Shown: piece by piece, positions 3,011 to 64,000 of the stretch
How the letters are laid out: each line of letters starts with the position of its first letter
How positions within the stretch are numbered: the stretch's first letter is position 1
Assembly: GCA_015178975.1 (NCBI GenBank)
Contig: WHVD01000094.1
Location: 186,001-250,000 of the forward strand
DNA length: 64,000 bases
Direction of reading: 5' to 3'
Source of the DNA: Hysterangium stoloniferum
Lineage: Eukaryota > Basidiomycota > Agaricomycetes > Hysterangiales > Hysterangiaceae
Translations under genes and position numbers: made by a program
The notes under the pieces: generated by a model
Seen by the model: only the letters and a program-made list of their open reading frames with translations
Database searches by the model: none
Told to the model about the DNA's origin: nothing

Positions 3011-3234
3011 TTTATATATTTGTGAAGTATACCATTCAAATATCTTACAAGTGTTCTTAAGCTAATCATGTTCCCTCACCCACTTGGGCAATGATTTTAT
3101 TGATAATAAATGTATTGCATCACTACTATACCAGAACTCACAATGGACTTGAGTGATACAAATATAACAAAAAAAAAAAAAAGAAAGAAATAATCACGCG
3201 CATTTTGAGGTGTTTGTGGCAGTCGCGACACCCT

Positions 3235-3318
3235 GCACGGCACTTTCGCTGTCACTGAAGACCCGGGTTTTACCGATGGCTCAGATAAAACCCTGCCACA
3301 GTTAAGGGACAAGCCCAA
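3235..3318 (-). repeat. Short inverted repeat, left copy
   Basis: About 75-85 bp that recur in opposite orientation at 6366-6440. Both copies contain, in repeat sense, CTTAACTGTGGC, GTTTTATCTGAGCCATCGG and TTCAGTGACAGC. The pair brackets the caspase-domain pseudogene about 3.1 kb apart. A poly(A)/AAAG run lies next to this copy (3168-3190). It may be terminal or dispersed repeat DNA; no target duplication was found. Confidence 0.6.
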
Positions 3319-3473
3319 GAGCTACAAGAACTACAATACATAGCCTAGCACGAAATATCCTGGAGATCCACAAATGCTATCACAGTGAGATTACTACTGA
3401 ACGGCCAAAATTTCAACAGCCACGTGATATACAACGCTAGTACCGCACACTCACACCAGGCGGACGACGCCCG

Positions 3474-5598
3474 CTACTCCTTTACTTTGCACCGTTCTAC
3501 AATTTTTATGAGGCACGTGTTCCAAGGACTATCTTCACTTTCGAAAACCAGGTCACGGGGAGATGCGAATGGCGGTATTGCAATAGGTGGCATTGACGCA
3601 GGCGAAGTCGTGAGGAAAATTTTGATAAATCCGTATTGCGTTAGTGAAGAATGATTCTTGAAGCGTAAGATATTCCTTTTCGTTGTGCCATAACCTATGC
3701 GGGCCTCCCCACCCCCCGACCGCAGCGGTGAATCAACCCGTTTACCACCTACTGCACTAATATCATAGATATCAACTGAATAGAGAGAGTAAGAAATGTT
3801 TAGGGATTTTGATGAAATATTCACCAATGGAAAGGGATCTCACGTTGATGAGATATATGTAAGGATAAAGATCGAGATCTGTGTTGTTCGTCAACTTTAA
3901 TCCGTAGTTGTTTTGCTTACGATCGACGGCGATATCAACAACTCTGTCCCTAATTAGATTTTGGTACCCCTCGACTGGTACCAGAATGGTACCAGTTCCT
4001 TGATTTTGTTTCACTACAGGAAAAAGCTCGATCAAAACACTATTAATTGGTACCTTTTGTTTCCCTCCACGGGGAAACTCGATCGAAAGATCACTGGGAT
4101 ATTGGCCTTCCCTACACATATTCCAGTGAACATGTGTAGCCTTAGTTAAGCCACGCAATGTTTCTTTCAATGTAAAGGCAGTGGTTAGGTCAAGCCTCTC
4201 CTCGTATTGTAGACTTGGAAACCGCATCGTAAAGGTCACCACAGAGTTTTCGATATACACAAGAATATCGGCCGCCGCATCCTCTTCAACACTCCTGATG
4301 CAATGACTTGTCTCCTTCTCCACAGAAGCCACAAATTTAGTGGAAAATGAACTCGAAAAATGAACATTGAAATTTTGCAGCTTCCCCCCAACCAGTTTTG
4401 CTCTCGCACGTTCAGGGAATAAGGTGCGTCTTGAACGAGACTCGGAATCAGGAAGGAGTGTTGCTTGAGTCTCTTCAACATGGATGGTTGTGAATTTACC
4501 CAGAATCCCATCGTCTATAGCCCTAACTTCGAAAACAAGCTCATCTACAATTCCTTGCACAAACCCAGCCAACAACACAGGAGAATGATCCAGTTTTATC
4601 ACAGGAATAACGGATTTTTCCAGTTTCTCAAGACTGAATAAAAACCGCTCGTGTCCTTTGCCTTGATAATGCGGGTTTTGTTGGCTATATAAAAAATCCG
4701 GTCAACAAAAAAATTTGGAACTGAGAACGCAAGGCGAGGTTACGGTAGTAGGCCCTGTAGAAGCTTGAAGAGCTCAATATATGTAACATTTTCGAAGCCA
4801 ATACGATTCAATGTATCGACCAAGGCCTTAGTGAAACACCCCTGCCCCCGGACCTCTTGGGCGAGTCCTGCATGGCCGCATGCCGCAAGTTGAACGTAAC
4901 TGCCAAATTCAGAATATGTAGAATTAAGTGAAGTTTGTGCTGAGTTTAAGATGTCCCAATCCTGATTATGTGGAAGAGTGCCGCCGGTCCTTGCACGCCT
5001 AGGGACGAACTCAGACTCCGGAAGGTCTCTTGCGCCGGAGTTGGAATGGCAACAGTCTAAAACGACTGTCTGCCAGTGTGTTTGGTTAGTCAACAGCAAA
5101 TTCGAGTACACATACTAAATAAGCTACCTACAATGTTACAATCCTTGCGCTTCGCCAAGCTCTCCAGCATGTCGTGTAAGCCGCGATCAGAAATCATATT
5201 ATGGACTTCCTTGTTATCCCCCTGAATAGTGTCGTAGGGTATGATGGTCTGGATCATGCCCTATTCTGGGTTCCAGTTCCATCTTTCATGCTCAGTAAAC
5301 TCATCACCATAGTATATCAGGATAGGGTGACCCTGTTTGATTAGACTATTAGTCTCAAGAGCGCGGAATTGTTCAATGATCCCCTTGCGTGTCGCTGCTG
5401 CATTGTGTAGCTTCACACAGTGGAGGTCGTACGTCTTGGCCAAGAGCGTTTCTACGATCCTTGTATCAGCGACTGCGCCACGCAGGGGTTAATTCCTATG
5501 TTCGGATATTCGTCAATGCCAATCAGCAAGGCAAATAGTTTCTTCTTATTACTGAGGGATGATGTGAACAACAGCTCATGTAAGTGTCTGAATGACAT
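3474..5598 (-). pseudogene. Caspase-domain (metacaspase-like) gene, broken
   Basis: Reading from ATG 5598-5596, the start of the p20 caspase fold is clear (KKKLFALLIGIDEYPNIGIN). The catalytic cysteine motif 'VVLDCCHSNSG' follows intron 1. Later come 'QNPHYQGKGHERFLFSL' and a long C-terminal region typical of Agaricomycete caspase-domain proteins, ending near 'FIKIFLTTSP' and the stop at 3474. Three introns have good GT-AG borders and branch sites and join frames correctly: 5070-5131, 4685-4743 and 3776-3824. Exon 1 is damaged. One base is missing near 5485 (the frame changes between GIN and LRGAVADT) and a TAG stands at 5261-5263. The usual YAGHG histidine motif is reduced to 'IYYGDE', so the catalytic His is absent. 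With both dyad and frame lost, protease activity is unlikely. An AT-rich TATA-like stretch lies at 5712-5725. Exons 2-4 are still open, so the inactivation looks recent. Confidence 0.78.
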
Positions 5599-6007
5599 AC
5601 TGGATTGTAGGTGAATCTGCAGAGCGTGGTGTCATGTCGAGAGGAAGAAGGATGGAAGGCTGAGAGGTATAACGCTGGGGAAGGCGAGGTTTTATTGTCT
5701 ATATGCAAAACAATATATATTATAAAATTGAACTAGTTCCTGCTAATCAGGGCTTTGCTCCGGCATTGTATGTGGTTTTGAAGCGCTGCATGATTCGTGC
5801 AGCCTTCGGAAAACTTGTGAATCATAGTTGTTGAATATTACGCTCTCGCACTCTGACCAACGGCTACCTCACACCGTATTCGGATATACCACCCCGTATA
5901 TGGTTATACCAAGCCGCATTATCCCCTGTCTAATATACCACGACTTACTACCATCATCTATATAATTTAGATATTTTACTATTTAGCCTCGAACATTTCA
6001 ATACCCA

Positions 6008-11193: not shown

Positions 11194-12150
11194 ATGTGTC
11201 CAAAGCCAACACCTGGCAGACCAATGCCCACTGCTGGGCCCTCCATGGGCTCCCCATATTGGGCTCTGCTCACTGCTGCCCAAATCTTGGCACAGTGAGA
11301 TGAGCAGTGTTGATGAAGGGAGGAAGTGGAAAAACAGGCCAAGGAGGCTGAGGAGGACTTGGATAGGGAGTACCAGGTGGCACTGGTCACAGAGAAAGAG
11401 GCTGAAGAGCATAGGAAGAAAGCTGAGGAGGCAGCATGGGTTGCCACAGAACAGGCCAAAGCAGCCAAAGAGAGGGCCGCAATTGCCACAGGGATGGTAA
11501 GTCCCAAAGAGTCTCGTAATGGACTTTGCTGACTTTTGCTTTAGCGCAAGGCAGCAGAGGTCAAGTCTGATTCTGAGGGTGAGCTGGAGAGCCCACTAAA
11601 AGTAAGTCTCAGGTCTGCAGATATTTCCAGGCACTGACCAAGTCAACAGAAAACAAAGAAAACCACTCCAGTCCACTTGGGGTTCAAGAATGACATGTGG
11701 TGTTCCAGTTGTAATGACCAGAATACTGACTGTCATCGGAAGTCTGGGCAGGGACCAGGCTGTTGGCAATGTGCACACCTCAAAGCAAGGTGCTCACTGG
11801 TTCACAAGCCCATGGGGTCTGTGGCACAGGATGTGGGTGGTTCAGACAGGCTGGGGGGCTTGGAGGATGTCTTGGGACAGATAGCCACAGGCATAGAGGC
11901 CCAGAACCAGTTGCTAGAAGAGGGCAACCAGGTGCTGGGAACTGTGCTGGAGACCCTCCAGGGACTCCACAGAGAGTTTTGGGCATTTCTGGCAGAGTAT
12001 GGCAGGTATGTGTATGCTGAGCCACAGATCAGAAGTTCCAAAAAGCCTGGTGAGGATGAGGATGAGGATGGGGTACCCGAGGAGGTGGAAGAACTCCAAA
12101 AGGAGCCTAAAGAAGTTGGGCAGAAACATAGCCCCATAAATGTAGATTGA
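11194..12150 (+). pseudogene. Antisense coiled-coil/Zn2Cys6 gene, copy A
   Basis: Lies on the strand opposite to gag-pol of element A, between integrase and 3' LTR. It has three exons, at about 11194-11496, 11545-11601 and 11650-12150, with GT-AG introns at the same places as in the whole copy at 62900. Exon 1 encodes a charged coiled coil (EKQAKEAEEDLDREYQ...). Exon 3 has six cysteines spaced CX2CX6CX9CX2CX6C (CSSCNDQNTDC ... CWQCAHLKARC), the pattern of fungal Zn(II)2Cys6 binuclear clusters. An acidic tail (EDEDEDG) follows. Exon 3 is long and open; the copy as a whole is broken. A DNA-binding regulatory role is inferred from the cluster alone. Confidence 0.65.
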
Positions 12151-14227
12151 AAAGTAATAATAATTTTTTTAAAAACTTAAAATAAAATAAAAACATGAAA
12201 AGTGTAAAAGTCCACAGGAACATCCACTAAGACTTGAAAACATGTCAGAAACCTGTAAAAGCAAAGAGAGACATAGGGTGACAGGGAAAAATTAAGTGAG
12301 TCCAACATAAACACAGGGTCCATGAATTGTGGCTAGAGAGAGGATAGTGGTCCGGGTTTGAGTGGGTAAGTTGTGTGAAAGTCAGTGACAATCAATACAG
12401 CATTACCGAGTTCCGTGGCCAAAATCCATGATGTCTCTTCATCAGTGCCCTCATAACCTGCCCACTTGACCAAGTAAAGCAGTTTACAAGTGGATCAACA
12501 CTTATCTATTTTTGAGTCTAAAATTTGAGAGATTTTAAACTCGGGTTCTCCTTCAATGATGACCAGAGGAGGTGGAGATTGCACATAATCCAGGATAGTG
12601 TTAGAAGTACACAGTTCTAGCATAGAAACATGAAATACCAGGTGTACCATGCAGATGCTATCCGGAAGCTGTAGGGTCCATGAAACTGAACCTACTTGTG
12701 CTATTAGTTTGAATGAACCTAAATATTTTTCAGTGAGTTTCTTTGGTGGACAGGTAGTCCAGAAGAATTGAGCTTTGACAAAAACATGACCACCAATTTT
12801 GAAGTTGGGTGGTGGAATCCAGTTTTTGTCTGCTGAATGCTGATATTGCTCTTGGGCAGACATTATTGCAGTCCAGAGTTCCTCATGGAGCTTGTGGAGG
12901 TCTGTGACAAAGTCTTGAGTGCAGGCAGAGGCAAGATTCTGTTCTGGATGTACTGTAATATTTGGATTGTATCCTTTATTTACAAAGAACAGAGAAATGC
13001 CAGTAGTGGCTGAGGGTGCATTGTCGTAAGCAAATTCTGCAAGTGGTAACAGGGATTTCCAATTGTCCTGTTGATAGTTGCAATATACACAGAGATATTG
13101 TTCCAATGTCTGATTGATGTGTTCAGTTTGTCTGTCGGCTTCCGGGTGATATCCAGATGTGAAGTGTAACTTCATGTCCAAGGATTTCCCGAGGGATCTA
13201 AAGAAGTGAGATACAAACTCTGATCCTCAATTGGAAGTTACATGGGATGGAACTCCATGCTTGGAAAATACATTGCGGGCCTGCTGGCAGGTCAAAAGTT
13301 TCATGGTAGAAAAGTATTCCAGGTTCTTGTGATCTGTTTCAACGTCAATCGGAATTCCCATGCCTTCCAAATAGTGTCACCATGTTTTGAAGGCTGAAAG
13401 AATTGCTAGGAGTTCCTTGTCATGAACATCATAATTGAGCTCTGCTCCAGTGAAAGCCTGGGACAGAAACACCATGGGGTGGACTTCTCCATCAGAGTCC
13501 TGGATAGACAGAATGGCTCCAAGTGCATACATAGTCCAAGGTGTCTGTCTCAACAATGAGCAGAAAGTCTGGTTTCCAATGTGAAAGAATTGGAGCTGAA
13601 GAAAAAGAATCTTTTAAAAGATTGAAAGCTTTTTGACACTTATTGTTAAAATTCCACAGAGTATCCGTGCATGTAAGACAAGTAAGGGGGACCATGATTT
13701 CGGAATATCCATAGATAAACTGTTGGTAAAAATTGGCAAAGCTGAGGAAAGACTGTATGTCTTTGACGTTTCTGGGTTCTGGCCAATATTTGATGACTTG
13801 TACTTTGGTTTCATCCATATGGAGTCTGTCAGGTCCTATTATGAAACCTAGATATTCCACGGAGTCCATGTCAAAAGTATGTTTTCTACCATTTGGGAAT
13901 AAGCCAAGTTGTCTGAGTCTCCAGAGAACTTCACAGACTTCTTTGTTATGTACCGTGGGGTCCTCAGAGTAGATAACAATGTCGTCCAAGTAAACAATGA
14001 TGCATACATCAAGCATGTCAGAGAAAATGACATTAATAAAATGTTGAAAAACAGACAGAGCATTGGTGAGCCCAAAGGGCATCACCAACCACTCAAAGGC
14101 CCCATAGTGGGTTCTGAAAGTGGTTTTCCACTTGTCTTCCATGGAGATCCAGACCAAATGGTAGGCATGTTTAAGGTCTATTTTGGTATAAATCTGGGCA
14201 TTCCATGGAGCATCGAGCAGGTCAGAT

Positions 14228-14312
14228 ATATTAGATTATATAATACCAACCATTGTTCCAACTGGGTCCATATGGTGTACAGCTCTGAGTTCAGTGTGTA
14301 TATGATCTAATA
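14228..14312. repeat. Small inverted-repeat insertion in the RT fossil
   Basis: ATATTAGATTATATA at 14228 is matched in inverse by TATATGATCTAATA near 14298. The 85-bp segment sits at the left of the roughly 250-bp DNA (about 14226-14478) that interrupts the reverse transcriptase of element A and looks like a MITE or part of a SINE-type insert. Confidence 0.4.
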
Positions 14313-14372
14313 GGAATGGCACTTAGGGTTACAGTATATCCTTAAGTACAGTGTAAGACCAAACCTACCCAA

Positions 14373-14444
14373 GGTCAGATGGTGTAGTGGTTAACACCTT
14401 TGTTATGTAATTGAGAGATCCTGGGTTCAATTCCCAGTCTGGCT
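14373..14444 (+). tRNA. tRNA-like sequence (pseudo-tRNA or SINE head)
   Basis: A 7-bp acceptor stem (GGTCAGA/TCTGGCT, two wobbles), a perfect D stem (GTGT/ACAC with A-box GGTGTAGTGGTTAACAC) and a perfect T arm (CTGGG TTCAATT CCCAG, B-box) are all present. The anticodon stem (14399-14403/14411-14415) is largely wobble or mismatched, and position 33 is not T in the best fold, so no anticodon can be assigned safely. With its position inside a retroelement fossil, this favours a tRNA-derived SINE or dead tRNA over a working gene. Confidence 0.5.
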
Positions 14445-14795
14445 ATTCATTTTCTACATTACTTATGTTTTCTAACAATAAGTGGGAGTGGATACTTATC
14501 CTTTTTTGTGACAGCATTGAGTCCTCTGAAATCAACACATAGTCTAAGGGATCCATCCTTCTTTTTGACAAACAGAACAGGTACTCCAAAAGGAGACTTT
14601 GAGGGTCTGATAAAACCTATGGACAAATGTTCATCCAGGAAATCCCAGATTGTAGAAAGTTCCATGGAGGAAAGTGGGTAAATATGGGGATAAATTCCAC
14701 AACATGGATTGGTTGGCCAGATAGTTCTGGTTAACTTTCTAAACCAAATAAATTTAAATTATATGAACTATATTTGAAAGTTTGCATAATATACA

Positions 14796-20063: not shown

Positions 20064-20739
20064 TTATCAATTAAAGTAATAAACAATCTTGGTTATCATT
20101 GTTGAGATTAGGAATACATTTCTAATTTCTCCCAGCTTTTGGCATAAATAAATATTGAGAATATTCTTGCAAGATATTTAAGACTACATTAAGATCCTGA
20201 TAGGTTAGTATCACAGTAGACCCTGTAGGTTAGTGTAAATAAAGCATATATTAGCCAAATGGTGTTTTATTATATATCTAATCTTTTGACCTGTTTATAA
20301 ATATTTTTACTGTTTGATAAATAGTATAAAATATATATAAACTAGCTATAATCAAAGTCGAATCTAGTTTTGGAATCAGTGAATTGTTATTCATATTTTA
20401 GTAGTTGTTTTCCCAGAAAAAGAACAGCTTGCAAAAGCAGCTCTCAAAACCTTCTTTGCGAAGTAGGGTGCATATATTCAAGTAAACTCTTGACTTCAGG
20501 GGTTCTAAGTCTATTCAGGCTGCCACTGATTAATATCAAATACTTAAATTATTTTACCTTGCAGTGAATTGAGTATTTGCACATTTTGATAGAGCACTGG
20601 ACTCCTTTTTCAGAAAATAGTATTAAAGTAAGGCTAATACATCACAATCACCCAGAAGGTGATGGACAAACTGAGTGCATCAACTAGACATTGGAACAAT
20701 ATCTCTGTGTATATTGCAACTATCAACAGGACAATACAC

Positions 20740-21150
20740 CCTCCAAGGCCCCCAGCCTTTCAGATAACCCACCACTCTCCTGGGCCCTGGACCCCATGGG
20801 CTCATGGTCCAGGGAACACCTAGCCTTGAGGTGGTGCATGGAAAGCACCCCAGATCCCACCCAGACTTCTGCCAGCAGTCAGTATTTCTGTCAGTACAAC
20901 TGGTGCACTGCAGGTCATTCTTGGCATCCAGTTGCACTGGAGCCATCTTTTCATCTTCTGTTGGTTTGGTCAGTCCTCGGAAACCCCATGGATAAATCAC
21001 TTACTTTTTGTGGGCTCTCACCCTCCCCCTCAGACTCAGACTCCATCTCCACCACCTTGTGCTAATGGGACAAAGTTAGTAAGGTCAAAAAAAAAAACAA
21101 ACAACAACAAGTCAGACTTACTTTTCCCACAGCCTTTTCCACCACTGTAA
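20740..21150 (-). pseudogene. Antisense Zn2Cys6 gene, copy F (partial)
   Basis: Minus strand, opposite to the plus-strand integrase fossil next to it. The cysteine cluster (CTSCTDRNTDC ... CFPCTTSR), the acidic exon before it and a splice donor context near 21112 match copies A and B. The coiled-coil exon is mostly missing. The integrase-proximal side is fused directly to integrase sequence near 20740. A broken relic that shows the same gene order in a plus-strand element. Confidence 0.6.
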
Positions 21151-22138: not shown

Positions 22139-23140
22139 ATGGGTCCCAAACCAACACACAGGCCAATGCCAGTTGCCAGGCCCTCCATGGGCAATTCATA
22201 TCGGGCACCTCTCACTGCTGCCCAAAATGCCAGTTGCCGGGCCCTCCATGGGCAATTCATATTGAGCGCCTCTCACTGCTGCCCAAATATTGGCGCAGCC
22301 AGAGGAGCAACGACATCAATGAGAAGAGGCAGAGAGGGAGGCCAAGGAGGCCAAAGAGCAATGGGACAAGGAGTACCAGGCAGTACTGGCTGCAGAGGAA
22401 GCGGCTGAGAGACAGAGGAAGTGGGATGAGGAGGAGGCCACATGAGTTGCTGTGGAGAAATCCAGGGCAGCTGCAGATAGGGCCACAGTTGCCACAGGAA
22501 AGGTAAGTTCCATTGCTACACCATGTCGACTTAACTGACTTCTCATTTTCAGCACAAGGTGGCAGAGGTCGAGTCCGAGTCTGAGGGGGAGGCAGAGAGC
22601 CCCCAAAAGGTAAGCCTTGGGTCCATGGGTTTTCCAGGAAAACTAACCACATCAACAGAAGTCAAAGAAAGCAGCTCCAGTCTGCCTACCAGCGAGGAAT
22701 GACCCACAGTGTTCTGGTTGTAATGACCGGAACACTGACTGCAATTGAAAGTCTGGGTGGGGACCAGGCTGCTGGCAGTGTGCGCACCTCAAAGCAAGAT
22801 GCTCACTTGTTCACAAGCAGCCCACAGGTCCATGGTGTGGGAAGCGAGCAGGTCAGACAGGATTTCAGGTTTGGATGAGGTCCTAGGGCAGATCGCTGAG
22901 GGCATAGAGGCCCAAAATGAGTTGCTTAGGAAGAGCAACAAGGTGCAGGTGGTGGTGGTGAATGAGCTCTGTGGGCTCTGTGATGAATTTTGGAAGTTCC
23001 TCATGGAGTACAGCAGCTACATTTATGAAGAACCACAGATCAGAAGTTCTGAGGATGCCAGTTCAGATGAGGATGGGGTGCCTGTGGAGATAGCAGAGCT
23101 TCCTCAAGAGATGGCTGAGGTTGGGCAGAAACATATGTAG
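22139..23140 (+). pseudogene. Antisense coiled-coil/Zn2Cys6 gene, copy B
   Basis: Starts MGPKPTHRPMPVARPSMG. A glutamate/arginine/alanine-rich coiled coil follows, then two introns with GTAAG donors at the family positions (about 22502-22552 and 22609-22671). Next is a cysteine cluster (CSGCNDRNTDC ... CWQCAHLKARC) and an acidic tail ending near 23140. It lies convergent to the minus-strand integrase at 23.25-23.95 kb and downstream of LTR B on the antisense strand. A broken copy, about 80 percent like copy A by eye. Confidence 0.62.
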
Positions 23141-23249: not shown

Positions 23250-23980
23250 ATGTCAGAAACCTGTAAAAGCAAAGAGAGACATAGGGCGACAGGGAAAAAT
23301 GAGAATGAGTCCAAACCTAACATGGGGTCTGCAGAGTGCAGTCAGAGAGAGGTTAGTGGTCCGGGTTAGTGGTCTGGGTTTGAGTGGGTAAGCTGTATGA
23401 AAGTCAGTAATGATTTTCATGGCATTACTGAGTTCCGTGGCCAAAATCCATGAAGTCTCTTCATCAGTGCCCTCGTAACCCACCCACTTGACCAAGTAAA
23501 GCAGTTTACAAGTGTGTCAATGCTTGTCAATTTTCAAATCTAAAATTTGTGAGATTTCAAACTCGGGTTCTCCATCAATAATGACCAGAGGTGGTGGAGA
23601 TTGCATGTGATCTGGGATAGTGTTAGCAGTACAAGGTTCTAACATAGAAACATGAAATACCAGGTGTTCTGTGCACATGCTATCTGGAAGCCGTAGGGTC
23701 CAAGAAACTGAACCTACTTGTGCTATTATTTCAAATGGACATAAATATTTTTCAGCAAGCTTTTTTGATGGAAGGGTAGTCCAGAAGAATTGAGCTTTGA
23801 CAAAAACACAATCGCCAATTTTGAAATGGGTGTCAGAATCTGGTGTTTGTCCACTGAACACTGATATTGCTCTTGGGTGGACTTTATTGCAGTCTGGAGT
23901 TCCTTGTGGAGCTTGTGGAGGTCTGTGGCAAACTCTTGAGCATCTCAAATTCCCCAGAAATAGAGAGTTGTTCAACAAGC
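23250..23980 (-). mobile_element. Chromovirus integrase C-terminus (element B)
   Basis: 'HFKIGDCVFVKAQFFWTT', 'KKLAEKYLCPFEIIAQVGS' and 'SWTLRLPD' are the integrase C-terminal GPY/F-type region. A chromodomain follows (VKWVGYEGTDEETSWILA, 23410-23495). The rest of pol is missing and the fossil stops at the edge of the inverted duplication near 23.95 kb. Confidence 0.8.
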
Positions 23981-37326: not shown

Positions 37327-40143
37327 ATGAGCAACGCGTCGTTCGACAAGGAAAAACGACCCCTCGGCGATGTTGAGGCGGTATCTGTCCCTTCCGACGC
37401 AGAGGATGAAAGTCAAATCCGTGCCAGGTTGGGACGCTTTGGTCTGGGAAAGCTGTTCGATGCCGGAGGTAAGCAAACTTGACCGTGGCGAGAATTCCTT
37501 GCCTGTATAGTTGATCTGTTATTCTCCATACAAGTCGAGGCGCGAGGTATCGAACGTGTGCCCGAGAATGAACGAGAAGACAAGCATAGTATCGGTCTTT
37601 TACTTCTATGGTTCTCGTACGTCTTTTGCACTGAATATCTCTATATATCATATCATGTTTATTTCTCACTTCCAAAAAGCGTCAACATCGTTCTCACCAC
37701 GATCCCCATCGGGATGCTCGCCCAGGAAATTTTCACACTGACGTTCCCACACGCCGTGGCTACCACATTGGGATTCGCACTCATGTAGGTTGCAGGTCTT
37801 ACATAACACCCAATATACTTGACGCTTATCACCGGATCACCCACCACTCCAATAGCGGCTGTACGACCGTCGGATTCATTGCGATCCTTGGTCCACGATT
37901 CGGCATGCGTACCATGGTCATCACGCGTTATTCGTACGGGTACTGGGGAGGGGCTCTTATTTCACTCCTAAATATCCTCACTCAGGTACGTATACGGACT
38001 TGATATCATCAAACGAGAATCATTTTACCGATCTTCTTTACAAAGCTTGGTTTCTCCGTTATCGCAGTTATCCTCGCTGGCCAGGTTTTGCACAATATCA
38101 ATTCCAATATGCCTCTAATTGTTGGCGTTATTCTCATCGGGTATGTTCATGGTTGTTGATTCTCTCTCAATCGTTCTTTCGTATTCGTATTCGGGATTTT
38201 ATTTGACGTTATCTGTTCTATTGTTGAATAAATCTAAATTGTCAACTATGTCGATAAAAAGTGTAAAAATTTCTTCATGATCCTTTCCGCCTCTTCTTTT
38301 CATTGATATCAACTATTTTTATTATCATGGATCTAAAGTTCTGACGAGCATTCCATTTTGTCCAGAATAATTTGCGGTATATTTTTTCGTTCATTCATTC
38401 TACGAGCTTTCATTGATTTTATTCAAATGTAATGTGTAGTGTTAATCTGTTTCGTTGGGTATGTCCCCCTCTCCCCTTTAATTTGTGAAAACTGACTGAT
38501 TTGTAGATATGACGTGCGCCCTTTTCATTGCTAATTAATTATTGTTGCATACTTTGGTTCTCATACCCAAATGCTAGCTCTTGCATCATTATGAACGCTA
38601 CGCCTGGATTATCATGTCTATTGTATTCCTCATCATTTATGGATTAGGTGGTCATGCCGGTATGTCTAAGATTCTCCTTTTACTTTATTTAAATAGTTTT
38701 CATTTCCTATATATCCATTGATATCACAGCAAAACACACCCTTATATTCCAATCGCTGACCATACTCTAGGATACCAAATTTCTCTCCAAAAAGCCGACG
38801 AAGACCCAGCCGGTCACCTCCGTGCCGCAGATGTCCTCAGTTTCGGCGGTATCATTTTCTCCTCCTGTGCAGGATGGGCGCCAGTGTCAGTCATATTCGT
38901 ACCCTTCCACCGCAATCGCGCGCTGAGGCTCACTGATATCTAATACCCTTATCTTATATTCTCAATTTTATCCCTCCAGCGCAGCAGATTTCAACTGTCG
39001 TCTCCCCGTAAACACGTCCAAAATCAAGATATTCGTGCTCACATTTTTTGGAGTTCTTATTCCCATTATGTTCATCGTTATTCTTGGGGCTGTACTTATG
39101 ACTGTACCTGCTTATTCGGATGCTTACCGTGCGGGGGATGCAGCTGGCGTGTTGAAGAAGGGTATATCCATGTTTTTCCCCATTGGTCCGGTTTTGCTGA
39201 CCGGCGGCGATTTGACAGTGTTCGAGCCTTGGGGACATGGTGGTGATTTCCTCTTGGTGCTTTTGGCCTTATCTGTCGTCGGGAACAACAGTATGTCTTC
39301 TATCTCTTTACACCTTTGGGGTCATATTATCATGGTTAACTGACTATTCCACATAGTCCCCAACACCTGTGAGCATCCTTTTTTATATCATCCATGGCTT
39401 TCTAAACAGCAATCTGACAATAGACTCCACCGCACTGTCAATGCAAACTCTCATCCCCGCATTCCGCCATATTCCCCGCGCAGCCTTCACAATCCTCGCC
39501 TTCATCATCTACACCGTAGCCGGAATTGCGGGTCGAGAACATTTCAGTTCCATTTTGACCAATTTCCTTGCTATCGTAAGTATAACCCTCAAATATCCAA
39601 TCACGATCACATCATCCCTCGGACGACGCTAACTGAATCCCCTGCTTTACTCGATGTATATATAGCTTGGGTATTGGATTGCCTTCTGGGTAGTCATTGT
39701 TTTCGAAGAACATATCATCTTCCGTCGTCCGAATGGTCCTTTGGGAGGATATGATCTGCGCGTCTACGATTCGCCTAAGCTGTATGTCTTCTGTTGTATT
39801 TCCCATCCTTTCACTGACTTATCCATCACCCACCTACCATCCATTTGGCCCATCCTTTGATAGTCTTCCCGTGGGTCTCGCTGCCGTGTACGCACCATAC
39901 TTCCCTCTTTCCTCTATCCCCTTTCACATGTCTCACTGGTTTTTCCGGATTTGATCTAGCTTCGCCAGCTGCTGCGGTATCGGAGGCGCCGTTATCTCCA
40001 TGGCACAAGTATGGTACATCGGCCCCGTCGCAGCGAAGCTTGGTCCGTTCGGCGGAGATATGGGTTTCGAGTTCGCCACCATTTTTTCGGGCATTATATA
40101 CCCCCCTTTGAGATACCTTGAGATCAAAAAGTGGGGCCGATGA
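37327..40143 (+). CDS. NCS1-type purine/cytosine permease, copy P2
   Basis: Sixteen exons: 37327-37468, 37535-37616, 37680-37784, 37856-37985, 38046-38140, 38366-38376, 38440-38458, 38507-38513, 38578-38659, 38771-38885, 38980-39290, 39357-39368, 39424-39575, 39666-39781, 39864-39887 and 39960-40143. Together they give 1587 nt, an uninterrupted 528-aa protein. Four are microexons of 11, 19, 7 and 12 nt. The protein shows the NCS1 layout: hydrophilic N-terminus, 'ARGIERVPENE', 'GPRFGMRTMVITRYSYGYWG', 'GWAPVAADFNCRLP', 'GNNIPNTYS', 'GYWIAFWVVIVFEEHI', and C-terminal 'GGDMGFEF...YPPLRYLEIKKWGR', with about 12 hydrophobic segments. Likely a plasma-membrane proton symporter for purine, cytosine or a related base. 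P1 is its divergent partner. Both being open despite about 9 percent DNA divergence suggests both are used. Confidence 0.9.
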
Positions 40144-49338: not shown

Positions 49339-49527
49339 GCTATCCCCTCTTCACTTCATATTTCTGCTATCCCCTCTTCACTTCATATTTCTGCTATCCC
49401 CTCTTCACTTCATATTTCTGCTATCCCCTCTTCACTTCATATTTCTGCTATCCCCTCTTCACTTCATATTTTTGCTATCCCCTCTTCACTTCATATTTCT
49501 GCTATCCCCTCTTCACTTCATATTTCT
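49339..49527. repeat. 27-bp tandem repeat, seven units
   Basis: GCTATCCCCTCTTCACTTCA plus TATTTCT, seven head-to-tail copies, one with a single C-to-T change. The period keeps one frame open (YPLFTSYFC repeated), but its place inside an LTR argues for a minisatellite. Confidence 0.92.
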
Positions 49528-52485
49528 GTGTTTTATCTTGTGTTTGGTAGCCTTGTTAGTATTGCCCTAACACTGGACCCCCTTTGTTCTCAATCCATCT
49601 TTGCCCATTTGTCATCTAGGGTAGTTTACTGCCATGTTTCCCTATTTGTTTGACATCTGGTTTATTGTGTTATTGTACTCTTGATATGTGTTATGACCTG
49701 TTCCTGGATACTTCAATATCTGATATCATCCAAAACATCTGACCTCCACCCCAAGTCTCCAATCTGACTTCCCACCTCACTATCTGATCCCAACTTCTGA
49801 CTATGGAACATTCATAGTTCCTGTACTTTCAGATCTCATTCTTGTTTCACATTTGGTAATTTGTTGATTGACAAGTATTCACTTGTTTGCTTATTGTATT
49901 CCCATTTCAGAGTACTTCTGATTCCATCTTATTGTGATCTTAGTTTGTAGTACAATAATGAGAAAACTTATATATATTAGTTTTCACGAATTTGTACTTT
50001 ACCTTAGATTTGATAGACTTAGTTTCTCATTCCTTCCTTCTCTCTGTACACTCAATATGTATTCAGAACTCTTCAGAACTCTGAATATCTGTATCCTCCA
50101 GCATAAATCACATCTCTGAAATTAAGGACTTTGAGACTTTGCATAGAGGTGCAGCACATAAGCTGAAGCTGACGTCCTGACCCTATTTGGAAGTTTCCAA
50201 GTTCCTGGTCACTTTCTGATAGTTCTGGAATAAGTTTCCAACATGGCACATAACAGTATATCAGATCTGAACTCTGCGACTTGCTCATCATGGGTCCCAA
50301 ATGCAAAGCTACTGAAGGACCATCCCAACTTCAATCTCTATTGCAACTTTATACCACTCAACCTGAAACCCCAGCTCAGCCAATAACATCAGCTTCTGTT
50401 GAAGAATTTATTGAGGTAGTGAAAGATCCTGATGCTCCTGAAGTGTCCAATGATGACATAGAAGAACAACCAACAAATTGAAAAAGAAATCTTCTGATGA
50501 ACCAACTGAAGTAATGTTTATCAACTCCATTGTGAAATTTGCTGACTATCTGAAATCTGCTGAGGAAAGAAAAGAATCATCCCACATGGAGGCAAAGAAC
50601 CCGAACCATTTACTGGCAAGGATCTGAAAAATTGAAGAATTTCCTTCTTTAATGCCATTTCAGTTTCCATGATTGACCCACTGCATTCGAGTCTGACAGT
50701 TGAAAAGTCAGCTTTGCACTCTCTTATCTTAAGGATACCACTCAGGGTTGGTTTGAACCTGGACTTTCCGGATTATCCAATGAGACAACTGTATGGCTCA
50801 ATGACTGGGACAAATTTGTTGAAGAACTGGAAACTAAATTTGGACCTTACAATCAATCTGGTGAAGCAGAAAATGAACTAATGACACTTAAGATGAAGGA
50901 TAGTTAATGAGTTTCCAATTATCTTGTCAAGTTCAATACCCTCACTGCATGCTGTGGATGGGATGATTCTGCCCTCAGGCAACATTTCTATATGGGTCTT
51001 CCATCATGCCTAAAAGATGATATCTGCAAAGATGGAAAGCCCAAAACTCTCCAACTCATGCAGATGAAAGCTCAGACATCCAATGGCCACTATTGGGGAT
51101 GAAAAGTGGAAATTTCCCAAGAAAATCTGACAGAATGTTCTCAAGGCAATAAGGCATCGACTAGCAAGTCTTCCAGCAACAACACTGGCAACAACACTGG
51201 CAACACTGGTGGCAAATCAAATTCTGATCAGAAGAAAGACAAAAAATCCAACAAGGAAAAACAGTCAACTTCCAATAAACCTGACATTTCCCACCTGTTG
51301 GGTTCCAACGGTAAAGTCACCCCAAAGGAGAAACAATGATGCATAGATAACGACCTCAGTCTTTTCTGTGGAAAAGGTGGACACAAGGTTTCCAATTGCA
51401 GCATTAAGTCTAACTCTTCCAAGGCTCACAGGGCAACTTCCACTACAACTACAACATCCAAGGAAAAACCTGCCACAGAGTTGAAAAAAGAGTATGCAAC
51501 CCTCCAGAATCTGCACAGACAGAGGGTTGCATTGACTCTCTCCATGTCTCTGAGATTATCTGTCTCAACACATCTGCTCTCACTAACCCTGACTCATTAT
51601 TTTTAAAACTCATTTCTGACCTTCTTGGAAATTTAGTGTTTCAAGCTCTGATAGATTCCAGCTCCACACACTGTTTTGGAGATACCACCTTTGCCACAAA
51701 ACATAATCTGAAACTCCACTCTATTCCCACAATTTCTTTGCATCTGTTTGATGGCACTAGCAACACAGCAATTACTCAAGCCTGTGACATGTCTATCCAG
51801 TTCCTGTGTGGAACATCCCAGATGGTTACCTTTTTCATAACACAGTTGGACTCTAGCTGTTCAGTCGTTCTTGGATACAACTGGCTCACCCGATATAATC
51901 TGTTGATTGACTGAGTATTGGGCAGTATTGATTTCTGGATTCCTGACACTTCTGTTCCTCCTACAGTGTCTAATCTGGCCCAGAGCCTCTTTGGCCTCTA
52001 TGGCACCTCCAGCTTCTACTGAAACCTATGAACCTCTGAAGATCTCTCTCATCAATGCTGCAGCATTTGTTAGAGTGAGTAAACTGGATAGATCACAGTG
52101 TTTTTCAATCAGCTTAAAAGTTGATGAAGCGTCTGGACATTTTGCAACTCCAGAATTATCTGAGCTGAAAGCCAACCTGGAAGGAGTTTCCGAGAAATAC
52201 CATGATTTCGCAGATATTTTCAGTAAGCAGAAAGCTGACTGGCTTGCACCATATAGGCCTTACGACTTAAACATAGATATTGAGCCTGGTTCAAACCCAC
52301 CCTTAGGACCTATTTACCTGTTGTCCCAATCAGAACTTTCATCTATTCAGGAGTTCTTGGATGAACATTTGTCAATAGTTTTATCTGTCCCTCAAAGTCT
52401 CCATATGGAGCACCTGTCCTTTTCATCAGAAAGAAGGATGGTTCCCTTCAACTCTGTGTCAATTTCTGAGGTTTAAATTCCATAA

Positions 52486-52889
52486 TGTAAGGCTGTAGGT
52501 ATCAGCCTCACTCAGCAACAGACAGGACAATGTTATCTGATTGCGAATTGTAATGATATACAGTAAGACAGTAAGTGATAGGTGAGTTCTTTTTTCTATG
52601 AGAGTAGCTACTAAAAGATTCTCTCTTAAAGGACTTCTTCTGGTGGAACAATCGGAGAATGAAGGTACCAAGGCCCAAGGAAAATGTTGTTTCGAGGGGG
52701 AAGTGATTGTGGAGATGGGAAATTAATAATTGCGATCAGGGCAGCGAGACAAAAAAAGGGGAACAATCCTGGTGACAATAGGCAAGCGGGATGGTGTGGC
52801 CACCAGAAGGGGGATGATCGGGGAGACAATAGGTGAGCAGTCAGTGTTGGTGTGACATATGTTTCTGTCATAAGACCACCAGGATTACA
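52486..52889. mobile_element. Solo LTR inside element C
   Basis: 404 bp TGTAAGGC...GGATTACA in the reverse-transcriptase region, with target duplication CATAA (52481-52485 and 52890-52894). Its end GGATTACA is shared with the TRIM LTRs at 24.2/25.2 kb, so it may belong to a related family. Confidence 0.82.
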
Positions 52890-55559
52890 CATAACATGGA
52901 AAGATAAGTATCCACTTCTGCATGTTACTGATTTACTTGATGCCCCATGGAAAGCTTGGATTTATACCAAAATAGACCTTTAACATGTCTATCATTTGGT
53001 CCAAATTGCTGAAGGCAATGAATGGAAGACTGCTTTCTGGACCCACTATGGATCCCTTGAATGGTTGGTTATGCCTTTTTGGCCTGAACTATGGAAAGTC
53101 AAGGATATCCAATCATTTTTAGGTTTTGCAAATGTCTACCATTGATTTATTTGGAACTATTCAGATATTACAAGACTGCTCACTCACCTTACCTGTAAAT
53201 CTCAACCATGGGTTTTTGACAACAAATGCCATTCTGCTTTTCAGACTCTAAAAAATGCCTTCACTTCCGCTCCAATTCTTTCTCATTGGAAACCTGATGT
53301 TCTGATCATTGTGGAAACTGATGCTTCTAACTATGCAATTGTTGTGATTCTTTCCATTCAAGATTCCAATGGTGAAATTCATCCAGTTGCATTTCTTTCT
53401 CGGACACTTTCAGTTTCTGAACTCAATTATGACATTCATGATGAGGAACTTTTGGCAATCTTCAAAGCTTTCAAATATTGGTGGCACTACCTTGAAGGTT
53501 CTGCAGATCCTGTTGACATCATTACTGATCACAAAAATTTGGAGTATTTTTCCACCACTAAACTTTTGACCTGATGGCAAGCCTGCTGGTCTGAATTTCT
53601 CTCTGCTTTCAACATGATTATCTGTTTCTGACCCAGACATCTTGGTGGAAAACTGGATGCCATGACTCAACAATGGGATGTCTATCCTAAAGAGGGGGAA
53701 AGTAACTATGCCATTGTTAATCTGCACAACATGAAACCAGTTTTTACAACACAGCAACTTTCCACATTTATCCAAGCAACTTCCCTCTACCATCCAATTA
53801 TGTGTAGTGTTATGATTATGGACATTGAGCAATTACATCAAGATATCCTTTCTGTACTTACTTCCAATCTGGCTCTCAAGTCACATCTAGAAGTTCCCAA
53901 CAATCCCGATCAACCCCAGTGGTCCCAAGACTCTCAAGGTTTCATCCATCTCGATGGATGTATCTATGTTCCAGATTCTGACAATCTCTGACTCCACATA
54001 CTTCAGTACAAACATGATCATCCAATCTCTGGACATTATGGCATTCACAATACTCTTGGTTTAATCTGAAGAGAATATACTTGGCCAACCTCTGAGATTT
54101 CATAACCCAGTTCTGTCATTCATGCACCACTTGCTTACACTCTAAATCCCAGAGACATAAGCCATATGGCCTTCTCAAGCAACTCCTGGAAAAACCCTGG
54201 AACTCAATTTCCATGGATTGTATCGAACAACTCCCAACTTCTGAAGGCTTTACATCCATTCTAGTTGTTGTAGACCAATTCTCGAAATAAAGAATTTTCA
54301 TACCCACTCATGATACAATTATGTCCTTACAATTAGCAGAACTTTTCATCATTCACATATTTTCCAAACATGGTGTTCCATCTCACATAACTTCCAATTG
54401 AGGTTCCAAATTTGTTTCCCATTTCTTTAAGGCCCTCGGAAAAGCTCTTGATATGAAATTACATTTCACTTTGGGATATCATCCAGAAGGTGATGGACAG
54501 ACAGAATGTGTCAACCAAACCCTGGAACAATACTCTGCATTTATTGCAACTACCAACAGGACACCTGGAAATCCCTTCTTCCACTTATGTAATTTGCTTA
54601 CAATAACTCTCCAAATGCCACTACTGGCATCTCTCCCTTCTTTGCCAACAAAGGATATAATCCTAATCTCACAGTATATATTGAATGAGATTTGGCTTCC
54701 ACTTGTGCTCAAGAATTTATTACTGACCTCAATGAGTTACATCAAGAACTTCGGAAAGCTATTTCTTCCACTCAGGAACTTTATCAACATTCTGTGGATA
54801 AAAACAGAATCCTGCCTCCTAACTTCAAGATTGGAGACCAGGTTTTTGTAAAAGTTCAATTCTTCCGGGCTACCCAACCTTCCAAAAAACTTGCTGAGAA
54901 ATTCTTAGGTCCTTTCGAGATTATAGCACAAGCTGGCTCACTTTCCTGGACTCTCTGACTTCCCAAAAGTATGTGAGCAGTTCATCCTGTTTTCCACATT
55001 TCCATGTTAGAACCTTGTGTTCCTAACAACATCCTGGAACATAGTCAACCTCTGCCTCCTCTGGTCATCATTGACAGAGAACCCAAATTTGAATTTTCTG
55101 AGATTTTGGATTCTAAAATTGACAATCACTGACGTACTTGTAAACTGCTTTTTTTAGTCAAATGGGCAGGCTATGAAGATGCCAATGAAGAAACTTCATG
55201 GATATTGGCCATGGAACTTGGACACACTATGGAAATTGTAACTGACTTCCACACCACTTATCCTAGTAAACCCAGACCTTTATCAACACTCTGATTCTCA
55301 TTTTCCCTGTCTTTTAGCTCATCCTTTTCCTTATTGGCATACATACCTTTCAGAAACTACAATAATACCAATGCTGACCATTACCTTTTCCAGGAACTCA
55401 TTTTGTTTTCAGAAGTTCCAATTCAATGCCCAGAAACCCTTCTCTTGGACATCATTATGGCACTCTAAGGTCTTGAACCTTAATTAACTCTATCCCAATA
55501 AATACCATCACATTAATGGTATCTCTAAGGAGTCTGATGCTAGTATTGTCATCCATATT

Positions 55560-56349
55560 CAGCACTTCAGTTTCCACAGGCCTGGCCATTCCCGAGGTTC
55601 CTGTGACTGCCACTTTTTCCACCTTTTCTGTTTTTTTTTTCTGCCTTTTTGACCTTTTGAGCCTTTTCATTTTTTGGAGTCTGCTTTACAGCGAGAGTGC
55701 ACAGAATTTTGTTTACCATGCAAGGAAAACAGGTCCTGCCCCATTTTACCTTCTGTCTCCAACAAGTAATGCCCCGGCTCGCACAATGCTGACATGGAAC
55801 TTCACGGGAAATCTCCATCCATTCTGGAGCCCTGGTCTTTTGTTTCTGTTTGGGAAATTAGTCATATTCTGGAATTTTACAAAATTAGTTACCTTTGGAC
55901 TTGAGGCCCAACCTTGTCCTCCTCATCTACCTCAATGGCTTTCTGCTGTTGTCTACTGTTATCAGAAATACATGGAACATTTCTGGCTCACTAACTTTTC
56001 CATCCCATTTCTCTTTCAACTGCTGTTCTTCTGCCATGGCATCCTGCTGTTTCTTCTCCGCCTCTTCCCACAGCCTCTGATCTTCTGTAATCTTCCACAA
56101 CCATTCCTTCCTCTTTTCCTCTGCTTCTTTCTCCACCTTCACCCACTCCAACTCACATTTTTCTGCTTCTTCCACCTCCTTCAATTCCCACATCAACTCT
56201 CTCTCCTCCTCATAGTGTTATCACCTCAGCTCCTCCATCCTCTGTCATTTTAGTTGAAGTTCTTCAACCCTCAACATCTTAGTGAGAAGGGCAATTTCAG
56301 TATCTGAATCTTCTGGAGTGGTGGCAAAGAAGGGATGGCGAATCAACAT
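55560..56349 (-). pseudogene. Antisense coiled-coil/Zn2Cys6 gene, copy C
   Basis: Opposite strand to gag-pol, between chromodomain and 3' LTR of element C. ATG context at 56349 (MLIRHPFFATTPEDSDTE), then a highly charged coiled coil (LWEEAEKKQQDAMAEEQQLK, 55960-56190). Two introns sit at the same places as in copies A, B and E. The cysteine cluster is CX2CX6CX10CX2CX6C (CQHCASRGITC ... CFPCMVNKILC, 55690-55800), with a Lys-rich tail after it. A TATA motif (TATAAAAA, about 56397-56404) stands about 55 bp upstream. Broken, but the domain layout is clear. Confidence 0.65.
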
Positions 56350-60397: not shown

Positions 60398-60589
60398 GTG
60401 GGACCAAAACCCATGCTGTGCAAACCCACCAACACAGCTGGGCCTTCCATAGAGTCTTCATACCAGGCTCCACTCACTGCTGCTCAAATACTTGAGCAGC
60501 ATGAAGAGCAGCATTGCCAGTGTGAGGAGGCTGACAAACAGGCAAAAGAGGCAGAAGAGGAGCTAGAGAGGGAGTACCAGGTGGTGTGA
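60398..60589 (+). pseudogene. Antisense coiled-coil gene, copy D (exon 1 only)
   Basis: 'GPKPMLCKPTNTAGPSIESS' and 'EEADKQAKEAEEELEREYQV' match exon 1 of copies A and B. It is cut off at about 60590, where unrelated sequence begins; the cysteine-cluster exon is not present in the window. Confidence 0.55.
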
Positions 60590-61320: not shown

Positions 61321-62006
61321 ATGACCACTGGCAAGAACCAAACACCAAGATCTTCAACAACCCCAAGTAGTTCAACACCTTGTCAAAGACCTGCTTGTCT
61401 GGAACCACCCCGTAACATCACCATGAGGAAGTCTTCATTAACTTTTCAAAGACCAGCCCCTCCTGAGAATCCCCCCGGAGCCTATCAATGTGAAGTGGGA
61501 CATGTACTATGCTGATTGAACCTCCACTGATCAGCTTACTCCCTTCACGGAGGAGTATGAAATGGATTACCCTTCTTTACCGGTGACTGTAGCAGTCTGG
61601 TTAGGTCATTATCAGGCCATCTTATCGGTGCAGGACTTATTCACGTGACCAGGAACCCTTGAGGATCTGACCCACTCGATTCCTGAATGGTCAAGTGATG
61701 TTACATCCATTATGGAAGGGGGAAGGATGATTTTTAGGTGGGAAGTCTTTATTCCTTGAAGCACTTCATACACACGATGATGTGCTGCAAATCCTTCACA
61801 TCCTACTCGGTGAGGATCTGTTACGACCGTGTCGTAACCCATGTCGCAACCCGATGGTCTCCGAATACTACAGTCTATCAATGTTCGAAGTTATTGATCA
61901 AGTCATCATTTCGGCAACCTTCGGAATACCGACACTGACGTATACCTTCACGGCGATCAAACCTCGTTTACGCCCCTGTCAAAATATACTCTACCATCTG
62001 GTTATG
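61321..62006 (+). other. Unassigned ORF relic and inverted LTR piece
   Basis: Ser/Thr/Pro-rich 'MTTGKNQTPRSSTTPSSSTP', then 'WLGHYQAILSVQDLF' in another frame: a gag-like N-terminus of unknown family. From 61811, TGTTACGACCGTGTCG repeats in inverse the end of the LTR 62007-62726, so a partial LTR lies head-on to it. Confidence 0.35.
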
Positions 62007-62726
62007 TGTTAAGAACTGGAAACTGACTAATGTCGGTGGCCGACAGGGACCGATCGGAAGGACTTGGCTTCAGCTTATGGGCTGCGCCCTCGCAAATATC
62101 CGCAGGATGTCCTTAAATTTCGGGCGGGCGAAGACTAGTCCTAGTGAGTACCTTTCGGCGTGATACCGATCGGAATCGAAGGACAAGTCAAGCGTCGGGC
62201 CAAGGGGTCGGGGCCGGGAGTGGGCGAGCGCACGCGAAGGCAGATGGGGGAAGTCTTAGTATGAGACTGATACAGGTGTATGAGGGTATTCTGAGTCGAT
62301 ATTCTGATTGTCTAGTAACTACAATTACAGCGGGTTCATATACAAGTAACAGGCGTCTGGAAAATACTAATGGGGAGAAGGGCGGAACACGGTATTAACA
62401 ATAAGCTTGACTAGGAACGGGAAGTTTATGATTAGTTCGGAGGCCGATGATAACCGAGAGTGGGATTACGATAAAAGGAAATGGTTCGAGGACTACAAAT
62501 ATAGATAGACATATGCGAAACATAAGATTGAACGGATCAACATAATAAAGGGGACGTATCAAAGTTTGACCAGACAATACGAGTTATTTGACGTGGGCGT
62601 AAATGGAGTTTGATCTTCGCGAAACATTCGTCAGCTTCGGGGCCGATGGTTTCCGAGAGGATGACTTGAAACGTTGACAAGTGGCGATAACCTCGGGGCC
62701 GATAGGGTTGCGACACGGTCGTAACA
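62007..62726 (-). mobile_element. Gypsy-family LTR (element E, 3' LTR), CpG-rich
   Basis: 720 bp TGTTAAGAAC...GGTCGTAACA, followed by GTATCTCCCCTTTTGGCC and GAAATCCCAAGGAGGCC, the counterpart of the block in elements A, B and D. Box at 62071-62074/62081-62084. Rich in CpG, hence young. Gag-pol of this element would lie beyond the window, on the minus strand. Confidence 0.68.
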
Positions 62727-62842
62727 GTATCTCCCCTTTTGGCCGAAATCCCAAGGAGGCCGAAAATCTAGATCCCGTACGTAAAAACTTGTCGGGTACG
62801 GCTGGGTGTGTCAAACATCATGTGACTCGGCAAAAGTTTGCA

Positions 62843-62849
62843 TATAAAA
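62843..62849 (+). promoter_or_regulatory. TATA box of antisense gene (copy E)
   Basis: TATAAAA 57 bp before ATG 62900, with ATCATGTGACTCGG upstream, comparable to TCATGTGATCTGG in copies A and B. Confidence 0.65.
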
Positions 62850-62899: not shown

Positions 62900-63887
62900 A
62901 TGACCATAGGCTCGGGGTCAAAGCCCTTCCCGGTTAGGTTAACAGTTGCACCCATGTCGGCGCCGAGTGGTACGGCGAACGCGAAAGAGCGTCGGCGTAT
63001 ACTCGAGCAGAAGAAAAAGGCGCGTGAAGAGGAGGAGCGGAAAGAGAAGGAGGAGTTGGCGGCCATCGAGGCCGAGGAAAAGAAACAGGCAGCAGAAGAG
63101 GCCGCACGCAAGCACTGGGAAGCAGTGCTTGCAAAGAACAAGCAGCAGGAGGCCGATCGGGCTCGGGAGGAGGCGGCGAAAAAGAAGCGGGAGGGAAAAG
63201 TGAGTCGGCTCTGGTGTCTTTTGCGAACCTTACTGACAATATCTGTTAGCGCAAGGCTGCAACGCCTTCGGAGTCCGATGACGAAGAGGGAGAGGAGGAC
63301 GAGGAGGATGCACCGGGGCCGTCGAGCCCCAAGGTGGGTTCGGTTTCCTAAAATAAAACTTCCTAAATAATTTTTTTTTTTTTTTTTTATAGAAACAAAA
63401 GCAGGCCCCCAAGGCGGGGCCCGAAAATGACCCCAAGTGCAATCGGTGCACGAAACGGGGTCGAACCTGTCATCCCCGGACCAATGGTCGGGGCCGCACT
63501 TGTCAAGAGTGCGCTGATCAGAAGCTTGGGTGTGTTTTCCCGGGGGCTGATGGCTCATTCCAGGAGCGACAGGCCGATGCTCTAGAAGAGCAAAACCGCC
63601 TCATGCGGACCTATTTCTCGGAGACGAGCCGGTACCGATATGAGATGTTGCGACAACAAGGGCTCATAACTGAGCAATTGCGACTCTTGGGCGTCGGGCT
63701 GGAGAAACAGACCAGTGTTATCGAGTCTCTCGGTGGTCAACTTGAGCAGTATTTGGAAGTCTCGAGTTGCGGTGGGCATGAAATTGGGGTTTCGGAGAAG
63801 GTCGGTGGTGTGGTATCGGTGGCTGTCGGTGCGGAGGAGGGTTCGGAGGTCGGAGAGGAGGGAGAAGTTGTAGAGGGAGAAAATTAG
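62900..63887 (+). CDS. Antisense coiled-coil/Zn2Cys6 gene, copy E (looks whole)
   Basis: Three exons, 62900-63199, 63250-63333 and 63393-63887, give an uninterrupted 292-aa protein; a second in-frame ATG is at 62954. Residues about 30-100 form a charged coiled coil (KAREEEERKEKEELAAIEAE). Exon 2 is acidic (ESDDEEGEEDEEDAPG). Exon 3 starts with a basic Lys/Pro stretch and six cysteines (CNRCTKRGRTC ... CQECADQKLGC; CX2CX6CX10CX2CX6C), the Zn(II)2Cys6 spacing. Then comes a second helical region (EEQNRLMRTYFSETSRYRYE) and a Gly/Glu-rich tail. Fungal Zn2Cys6 domains with a following coiled coil usually bind DNA as dimers; here nuclear DNA binding is inferred. It is downstream of an LTR and TATA box and CpG-rich. 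No closer family is known to me. Confidence 0.75.
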
Positions 63888-64000
63888 ATAGTGAAATATA
63901 TCGGTTTTTCTTTTTAAAACAAACAAATCATAGCGTGAAAACATAAGGCATAGTCGGAAAAAGGTCGGGTACCGCGTGATAGACTTATAAGGAATTGAGA

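Follow-up and report, generated by a model that had tools for sequence, protein, structure and literature searches.

Several retroelements carry an extra gene on the strand opposite to gag and pol. The closest described relative of the case reported here is brtn of the Boty-like Ty3/gypsy elements in Botrytis cinerea and Sclerotinia sclerotiorum, an antisense gene between pol and the 3' long terminal repeat (LTR) of elements whose gag-pol includes a CHROMO domain (available parts of PMC7264820, PMC4227169 and PMC8365987). We found the same layout in a 64,000-nucleotide stretch of DNA from the basidiomycete Hysterangium stoloniferum (GenBank assembly GCA_015178975.1, contig WHVD01000094.1, positions 186,001 to 250,000 of the forward strand; hereafter the window), where a chromovirus, element F, carries an intron-bearing antisense gene, gene F. 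The likeness to Boty, whose host is an ascomycete, is drawn from descriptions of that element.

Antisense extra open reading frames (ORFs) also occupy this place and strand in the plant elements Retand, Grande and RIRE2. According to the accessible portions of PMC11963269 and PMC7264820, the TRP28 proteins of Retand are predicted to bind DNA and were suggested to be regulators, and gene23 of maize Grande is transcribed from a promoter upstream of gene23. As far as these portions describe them, the plant elements differ from element F in their hosts and in the domains of their antisense products, and Retand belongs to a non-chromovirus lineage. The word 'intron' is absent from the texts of PMC11963269 and PMC7264820 on the plant antisense ORFs. 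A more distant parallel is HBZ of human T-cell leukaemia virus type 1 (HTLV-1), an antisense-encoded nuclear protein (PMC11963269, in part) whose antisense promoter lies in the 3' LTR (PMC7264820, in part). HBZ differs from gene F in belonging to an animal retrovirus and in having a bZIP domain rather than a zinc cluster, and no homology is expected. The HBZ message is spliced, its bZIP forms a coiled coil, and the protein controls the 5' LTR.

With brtn on record (PMC7264820 and PMC8365987, in part), antisense genes of this kind have a precedent among fungal gypsy elements. The initial annotation mentioned antisense ORFs in some plant gypsy elements and knew of none encoding a fungal binuclear zinc cluster. 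No zinc-cluster gene in gypsy elements was found in the literature searched, outside of which lies most subscription literature, and 'antisense' does not occur in the available parts of two fungal gypsy surveys (PMC3248453, PMC2864245). Gag and pol are usually thought sufficient for a Ty3/gypsy element, yet in this case an entire lineage has retained, through many reverse transcriptions, a gene with introns and of opposite polarity. The role of antisense genes in retrotransposons, a question raised also by plants and Boty, can be tested in this lineage, which offers a recognisable kind of DNA-binding protein and a candidate target that is defined. A further caution is that genes annotated in fungi as zinc-cluster-like may belong to transposons.

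We propose that gene F belongs to a fungal chromovirus lineage as an accessory gene and encodes a Zn2Cys6-like regulator of LTR transcription, a reading to which we assign a probability of roughly 60%. Gene F (62900-63887, plus strand) has three exons encoding 292 amino acids and runs antisense to gag-pol, in the interval that separates the chromodomain end of pol from the 3' LTR. The gene and pol converge, their stop codons being 97 bp apart. Types F, G, A and H of the gene (type H at one locus, L049) have in common two introns at matching places and an RKA...SPK/LK exon 2. A TATA-like box stands 55-60 bp upstream of the ATG in F, H, A2 and A; type G has no match to the strict TATA pattern and reads TATAAGA at the aligned place, and its first ATG is two codons downstream of that of F. 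Across types the start codon is 173-210 bp from the LTR end (173 bp in F).

We infer transcription and splicing of the gene, zinc and DNA binding by its product, the target and the direction of regulation as follows. An antisense transcript with two short introns would start from a TATA promoter that lies immediately inside the 3' LTR and has the U3 of this LTR upstream. Once spliced, it would encode a dimer-forming Zn2Cys6-like protein of about 290 amino acids with acidic stretches, which would enter the nucleus and bind the U3 of the element. Since the same U3 precedes gag-pol as part of the 5' LTR and, as part of the 3' LTR, the antisense gene, a U3-binding protein could control both, its sites lying in the control region of gag-pol and in that of its own gene. 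The protein would regulate the element, more likely as an activator than as a repressor because of its acidic regions and GAL4-like order of parts. Genomic RNA would be of the other polarity, so that the introns would survive retrotransposition.

The case for a zinc cluster begins with six cysteines and one lysine, which are invariant in all 14 aligned domain pieces from the F/G, A and H groups. In each piece the cysteines agree with the Zn2Cys6 spacing range, CX2CX6CX(5-12)CX2CX(6-8)C, the spacing being CX2CX6CX9CX2CX6C in copy A and CX2CX6CX10CX2CX6C in F and copy D. Gene F shares with GAL4, LEU3, PPR1 and LAC9 the six cysteines in register, a long helix after the cluster and acidic stretches. 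It differs from the GAL4 type in lying antisense in a retrotransposon, in a middle loop of 9-10 residues, in halves that often match in swapped order and in scores mostly below the Pfam cut-off. PF00172 was matched by all 14 pieces (best E 3e-5), and two of the 11 pieces shown singly exceeded the 21-bit gathering cut-off (23.1 and 24.5). When whole exon 3 was submitted to Pfam, six of 10 members matched PF00172 (best E 0.0015). The four best matches of profile A1 in the PDB were Leu3, Lac9, Ppr1 and Leu3 (E 0.13-1.6), and that of profile A4 was GAL4, in halves (E 1.7). Profile-profile comparison with four PDB zinc clusters gave E 0.0013 at a probability of 18.6%, and E 0.0014 with A1. An AlphaFold2 model from three window sequences shows two helix-strand units (pLDDT near 60) followed by a 68-residue helix (pLDDT near 90), in line with the coiled coil named in the initial annotation.

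Several results weigh against this assignment. Nine of the 11 singly shown pieces fell below the cut-off, and the one cysteine-preserving shuffle that matched PF00172 did so with 15.9 bits, outscoring six of the 11 real pieces. Whole exon 3 gave no PF00172 match for F and G and only E 2.3 for H, and F was not among the matches of a PF00172 profile search of the genome. An earlier model from two sequences differs in the zinc part (pLDDT 51-66 there in the two models), and a Foldseek search of the model against the PDB returned only two poor, unrelated matches. We call the domain divergent and Zn2Cys6-like. The GAL4-type claim of the initial annotation holds in that weaker form, and the PF00172 search that it had proposed succeeds with domain pieces but fails with the whole exon 3 of F.

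These results leave room for a different fold, unrelated to Zn2Cys6, in which one or two metals would be held by the six cysteines and the resemblance to PF00172 would stem from convergent cysteine spacing. GAL4 has its basic recognition half first. The best PF00172 stretch had the halves swapped in nine of the 11 singly shown pieces, which together with the low scores, the 15.9-bit shuffle and the low-confidence model favours convergence; the other two (G and H) had the ordinary order. A simple half score favoured the swapped order in 9/9, for H by 0.3 only. The PDB and profile-profile alignments, like G and H, run in ordinary order through all six cysteines, and only one of 10 cysteine-preserving shuffles matched PF00172, against every real piece. 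Three residues ahead of the sixth cysteine stands the invariant lysine, whose presumed counterpart in GAL4 would be Lys18, which precedes the third cysteine. We consider convergence unlikely, though it survives best among the alternatives.

Slightly less likely again is a protein acting at another nucleic acid or chromatin step, such as bringing the preintegration complex into the nucleus, choosing targets together with the chromodomain, or RNA chaperoning. The gene lies beside the chromodomain end of pol, its product is basic and cysteine-rich, and both profiles weakly match the retroviral gag zinc knuckle 1q3y (E 8.6 for A1 and 4 for A4). Against such a role, all 14 pieces match PF00172 rather than a knuckle family, a long helix follows the cluster, and the protein, instead of being fused to pol, has an antisense gene and a TATA-like box to itself.

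Exon 3 of the antisense gene is under selection at the protein level. The median ratio of nonsynonymous to synonymous substitution rates (dN/dS) in the gene frame was 0.18 among 28 pairs from eight F/G loci and 0.29 among 45 pairs from ten A loci, with many of the synonymous rates (dS) near saturation. The other five frames gave 0.32-1.32. The next-lowest was one antisense frame, at 0.32 and 0.38, so that the gene frame stands out strongly from four of the others and moderately from this fifth. One F pair in a separate comparison had a dN/dS of 0.75. Such amino-acid selection, together with the invariance of the six cysteines and the lysine, makes it quite improbable that the antisense transcript is itself the functional product, pairing with genomic RNA and feeding RNA interference or limiting copy number, a role that has been proposed for retroelement antisense RNAs (PMC7264820, in part).

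No loss of intron 1 was seen. Degenerate patterns for the unspliced exon 1-intron 1 junction had 731 genome matches (261 for F/G and 470 for A), and those for the spliced exon 1-exon 2 junction had none for either F/G or A; the patterns concern intron 1 of these types and are of unequal length (25-27 vs 29 bases, up to three mismatches each). Read backwards, the unspliced patterns had one and two matches, which, like the frame-specific selection, sets the gene apart from a chance pattern. The junction counts fit the earlier explanation that the introns are kept through retrotransposition because antisense introns would stay in a genomic RNA of pol polarity. One locus, L036, was considered as a spliced copy, with exon 1 beside exon 3, and rejected: its break lies inside intron 1, which makes it a deletion.

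Copies of the gene number in the hundreds and fall into at least four types (F, G, A and H); for exon 3, the best 150 places were scored of 506 candidates (F) and of 1267 (A). Integrase lay on the strand opposite to the gene in 47 of the 48 loci examined, a set in which L001 and L031 are one place and 30 loci are near-identical F copies. At the exception, L048, the sole integrase found belongs to a neighbour. Conversely, 115 of the best 150 integrase places had a listed F/G gene opposite and downstream, and none had one on the same strand within 2.5 kb. We read 11 of the remaining 35. All five with an integrase of the 85%-identical group carry type H (frames read in four loci, introns checked in L049), and all six others have deleted or truncated remains of the gene. 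Ten gene copies without a listed integrase were examined, and each had pol remains on the opposite strand.

Stand-alone host homologues, which would speak against an element-borne gene, were thus sought in the 48 loci and 10 further copies and not found, a set that leaves aside 24 of the 35 integrase places and the greater part of the 66 gene places that were unpaired. The least probable alternative, capture of a host zinc-cluster gene carried as a passenger, draws on the fungal kind of the domain and on other PF00172 genes in the host, and is opposed by the divergence of the gene into at least four types that have intron places in common and a low dN/dS and by the lack of a stand-alone copy among those examined, and it bears more on origin than on present function. 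Relatives of the gene were not confirmed in bacterial or archaeal genomes or in IMG/VR.

A point against an accessory function is that some copies with a long open pol (C14, C3) are partly gene-deleted. For two gene-deletion junctions, a genome search (best 40 of 70 and best 40 of 235 candidates scored) found a full-length match only in the copy concerned. Since each junction matches in one place only, gene-deleted copies have apparently failed to multiply, although the cases number only two and the deletions are possibly later than insertion. Differing partial deletions of the antisense gene were also observed beside F- or G-type pol at L055, L056, L057, L058, L059 and L060.

We next consider how the gene and the LTR vary together. 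In the comparison of type G with F (locus L032 against F), pol is 98-100% identical except for its last ~450 bp (83-96%). The gene and proximal U3 fall to 57-76%, and the far part of the LTR is 87-94% identical. The gene and its adjoining U3 co-diverge beside a near-identical pol, which counts in favour of the proposed regulator. In 20 of the 21 pairs formed by seven loci, dS was 2.7-8.8 times as large in the gene as at the pol end, the upper values being saturated; the remaining pair, L035-L038, had nearly equal values (0.167 and 0.147). This fits exchange of a segment of gene and adjoining U3 between elements, with slower synonymous change in pol as an alternative.

It is possible but doubtful that gene and adjoining U3 form a regulator-plus-target module, in which each subfamily's own zinc-cluster protein is tuned to its own LTR, perhaps with the recognition half second, and subfamilies swap the whole module and keep pol. 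If so, control specificity would evolve apart from the replication machinery, like phage immunity groups. Two kinds of result weigh against the regulator proposed above. The swapped gene and U3 are adjacent, so one crossover explains both without any function. The second concerns CGG pairs, the usual targets of Zn2Cys6 proteins, which gave mixed results and were not used as proof of a target. Across 900-909-bp LTR stretches, with LTR limits assumed for G, H and A2, CGG counts exceeded all or nearly all shuffles in H and A2, partly in G and not in F, and F pol was also enriched over shuffles. On the true F LTR the count was reached by 220 of 1000 shuffles, and on 721 bp of G by none. Shuffles reached the count of the commonest CGG spacing in 14 (F, in a stretch that includes flanking bases), 2 (G), 1 (H) and 4 (A2) of 1000; pol and gag windows reach 2-7.

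Element F is a full-length Ty3/gypsy chromovirus. The window is C549:186001-250000 of a 111-Mb genome in 554 contigs, whose short introns and PF00172 matches are those of a fungus, and the element continues beyond the window in locus L031. On the minus strand the order is gag, protease, reverse transcriptase, RNase H, integrase and chromodomain, with a gag ORF at L031:5779-7104 and pol ORFs at L031:2093-2812 and 2813-6001. Retrotrans_gag, RVP_2, RVT_1, RT_RNaseH, Integrase_H2C2 and rve each score above the Pfam cut-off, as does the chromodomain at the integrase C end (PF00385, 26.3 bits against 25.1). The 5' LTR (L031:7116-7835) and the 3' LTR differ at 4 of 720 positions. Pol is broken by one stop in this copy; open pol frames of 1302 amino acids are present elsewhere in the genome.

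Table 1. Coordinates of element F, its antisense gene and the further gene copies in the window.
Feature	Position	Strand	Remarks
Target-site duplication TTATG, left copy	62002-62006	.	TTATG repeated after the other LTR, L031:7836-7840
3' LTR of element F, 720 bp	62007-62726	-	U3 end toward antisense gene; compared with 5' LTR
Polypurine tract, AAAAGGGGAGATAC in pol sense	62727-62740	-	directly adjoins 3' LTR
TATA-like box	62843-62849	+	57 bp before gene F start codon
Exon 1	62900-63199	+	highly charged; coiled coil likely by eye
Intron 1, GTGAGT...TAG, 50 bp	63200-63249	+	place common to types F, G, A, H (H: L049)
Exon 2, RKA...acidic...GPSSPK	63250-63333	+	
Intron 2, GTGGGT...TAG, 59 bp	63334-63392	+	GT-AG like intron 1
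Exon 3	63393-63887	+	cysteine cluster, long helix, acidic tail, stop
Six-cysteine cluster CX2CX6CX10CX2CX6C	63438-63533	+	PF00172 match, 14.1 bits, cut-off 21
Long helix, likely dimerisation coiled coil	63558-63761	+	AlphaFold2 helix 56-123 of exon 3, pLDDT about 90
Pol 3' end (chromodomain end)	63985-64000	-	pol and gag continue past the window into L031
Copy A, type A	11194-12150	+	tblastn; exons 11194-11496, 11545-11601, 11650-12150; exon 1 has three in-frame stops
Pol pieces of element A	12336-14683	-	opposite copy A
Copy B, type A	22139-23134	+	frame broken; both introns seen in alignment; integrase 23364-23941 on -
Copy C, type A	20732-20949	-	exon-3 fragment; pol fragment 20622-20735 on +
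Copy D, type H	55340-56349	-	broken; pol on + at 51462-55279; paired LTRs near 49689 and 56533
Copy E, type A	60404-60586	+	exon-1 fragment only, without adjoining pol

All six gene copies reported for the window were recovered by tblastn, with corrected limits (Table 1). Copy D, first placed at 55560-56349, exists but extends further and belongs to another type. Pol lies on the opposite strand beside copies A, B, C and F, as had been described, and beside D as well. The two introns attributed to A, B, C and E were seen in A and B (and F), but are unconfirmed in C, and the fragment in E is unable to show them. A tandem array of 27-bp units is located at 49339-49528, just before element D.

Other observations concern the age and surroundings of the elements. 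The genome-wide PF00172 search gave 76 matches with E no higher than 1, the best at 2.5e-9, some of them consecutive and in part within one open frame (G000:C56:27459-28077 and 39173-39800; C115:74483-75050), as if the host had proteins in which zinc clusters are arranged in tandem. Contig ends are found only a few kb away from many of the youngest F copies, on the pol side of the element (C62, C170, C134, C185, C188, C314, C519, C523 and others), and the assembly probably breaks inside near-identical F elements. Internal stops of the F-type gene copies at the exon-3 search places are mostly TGA, and the LTRs of older copies (L034, L036, L038) have few CGG pairs, both as expected from CpG methylation and deamination. 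Beside element F, a palindromic stretch at 61819-62001 matches the LTR end in inverted orientation, for which reason element F may have inserted at an older LTR.
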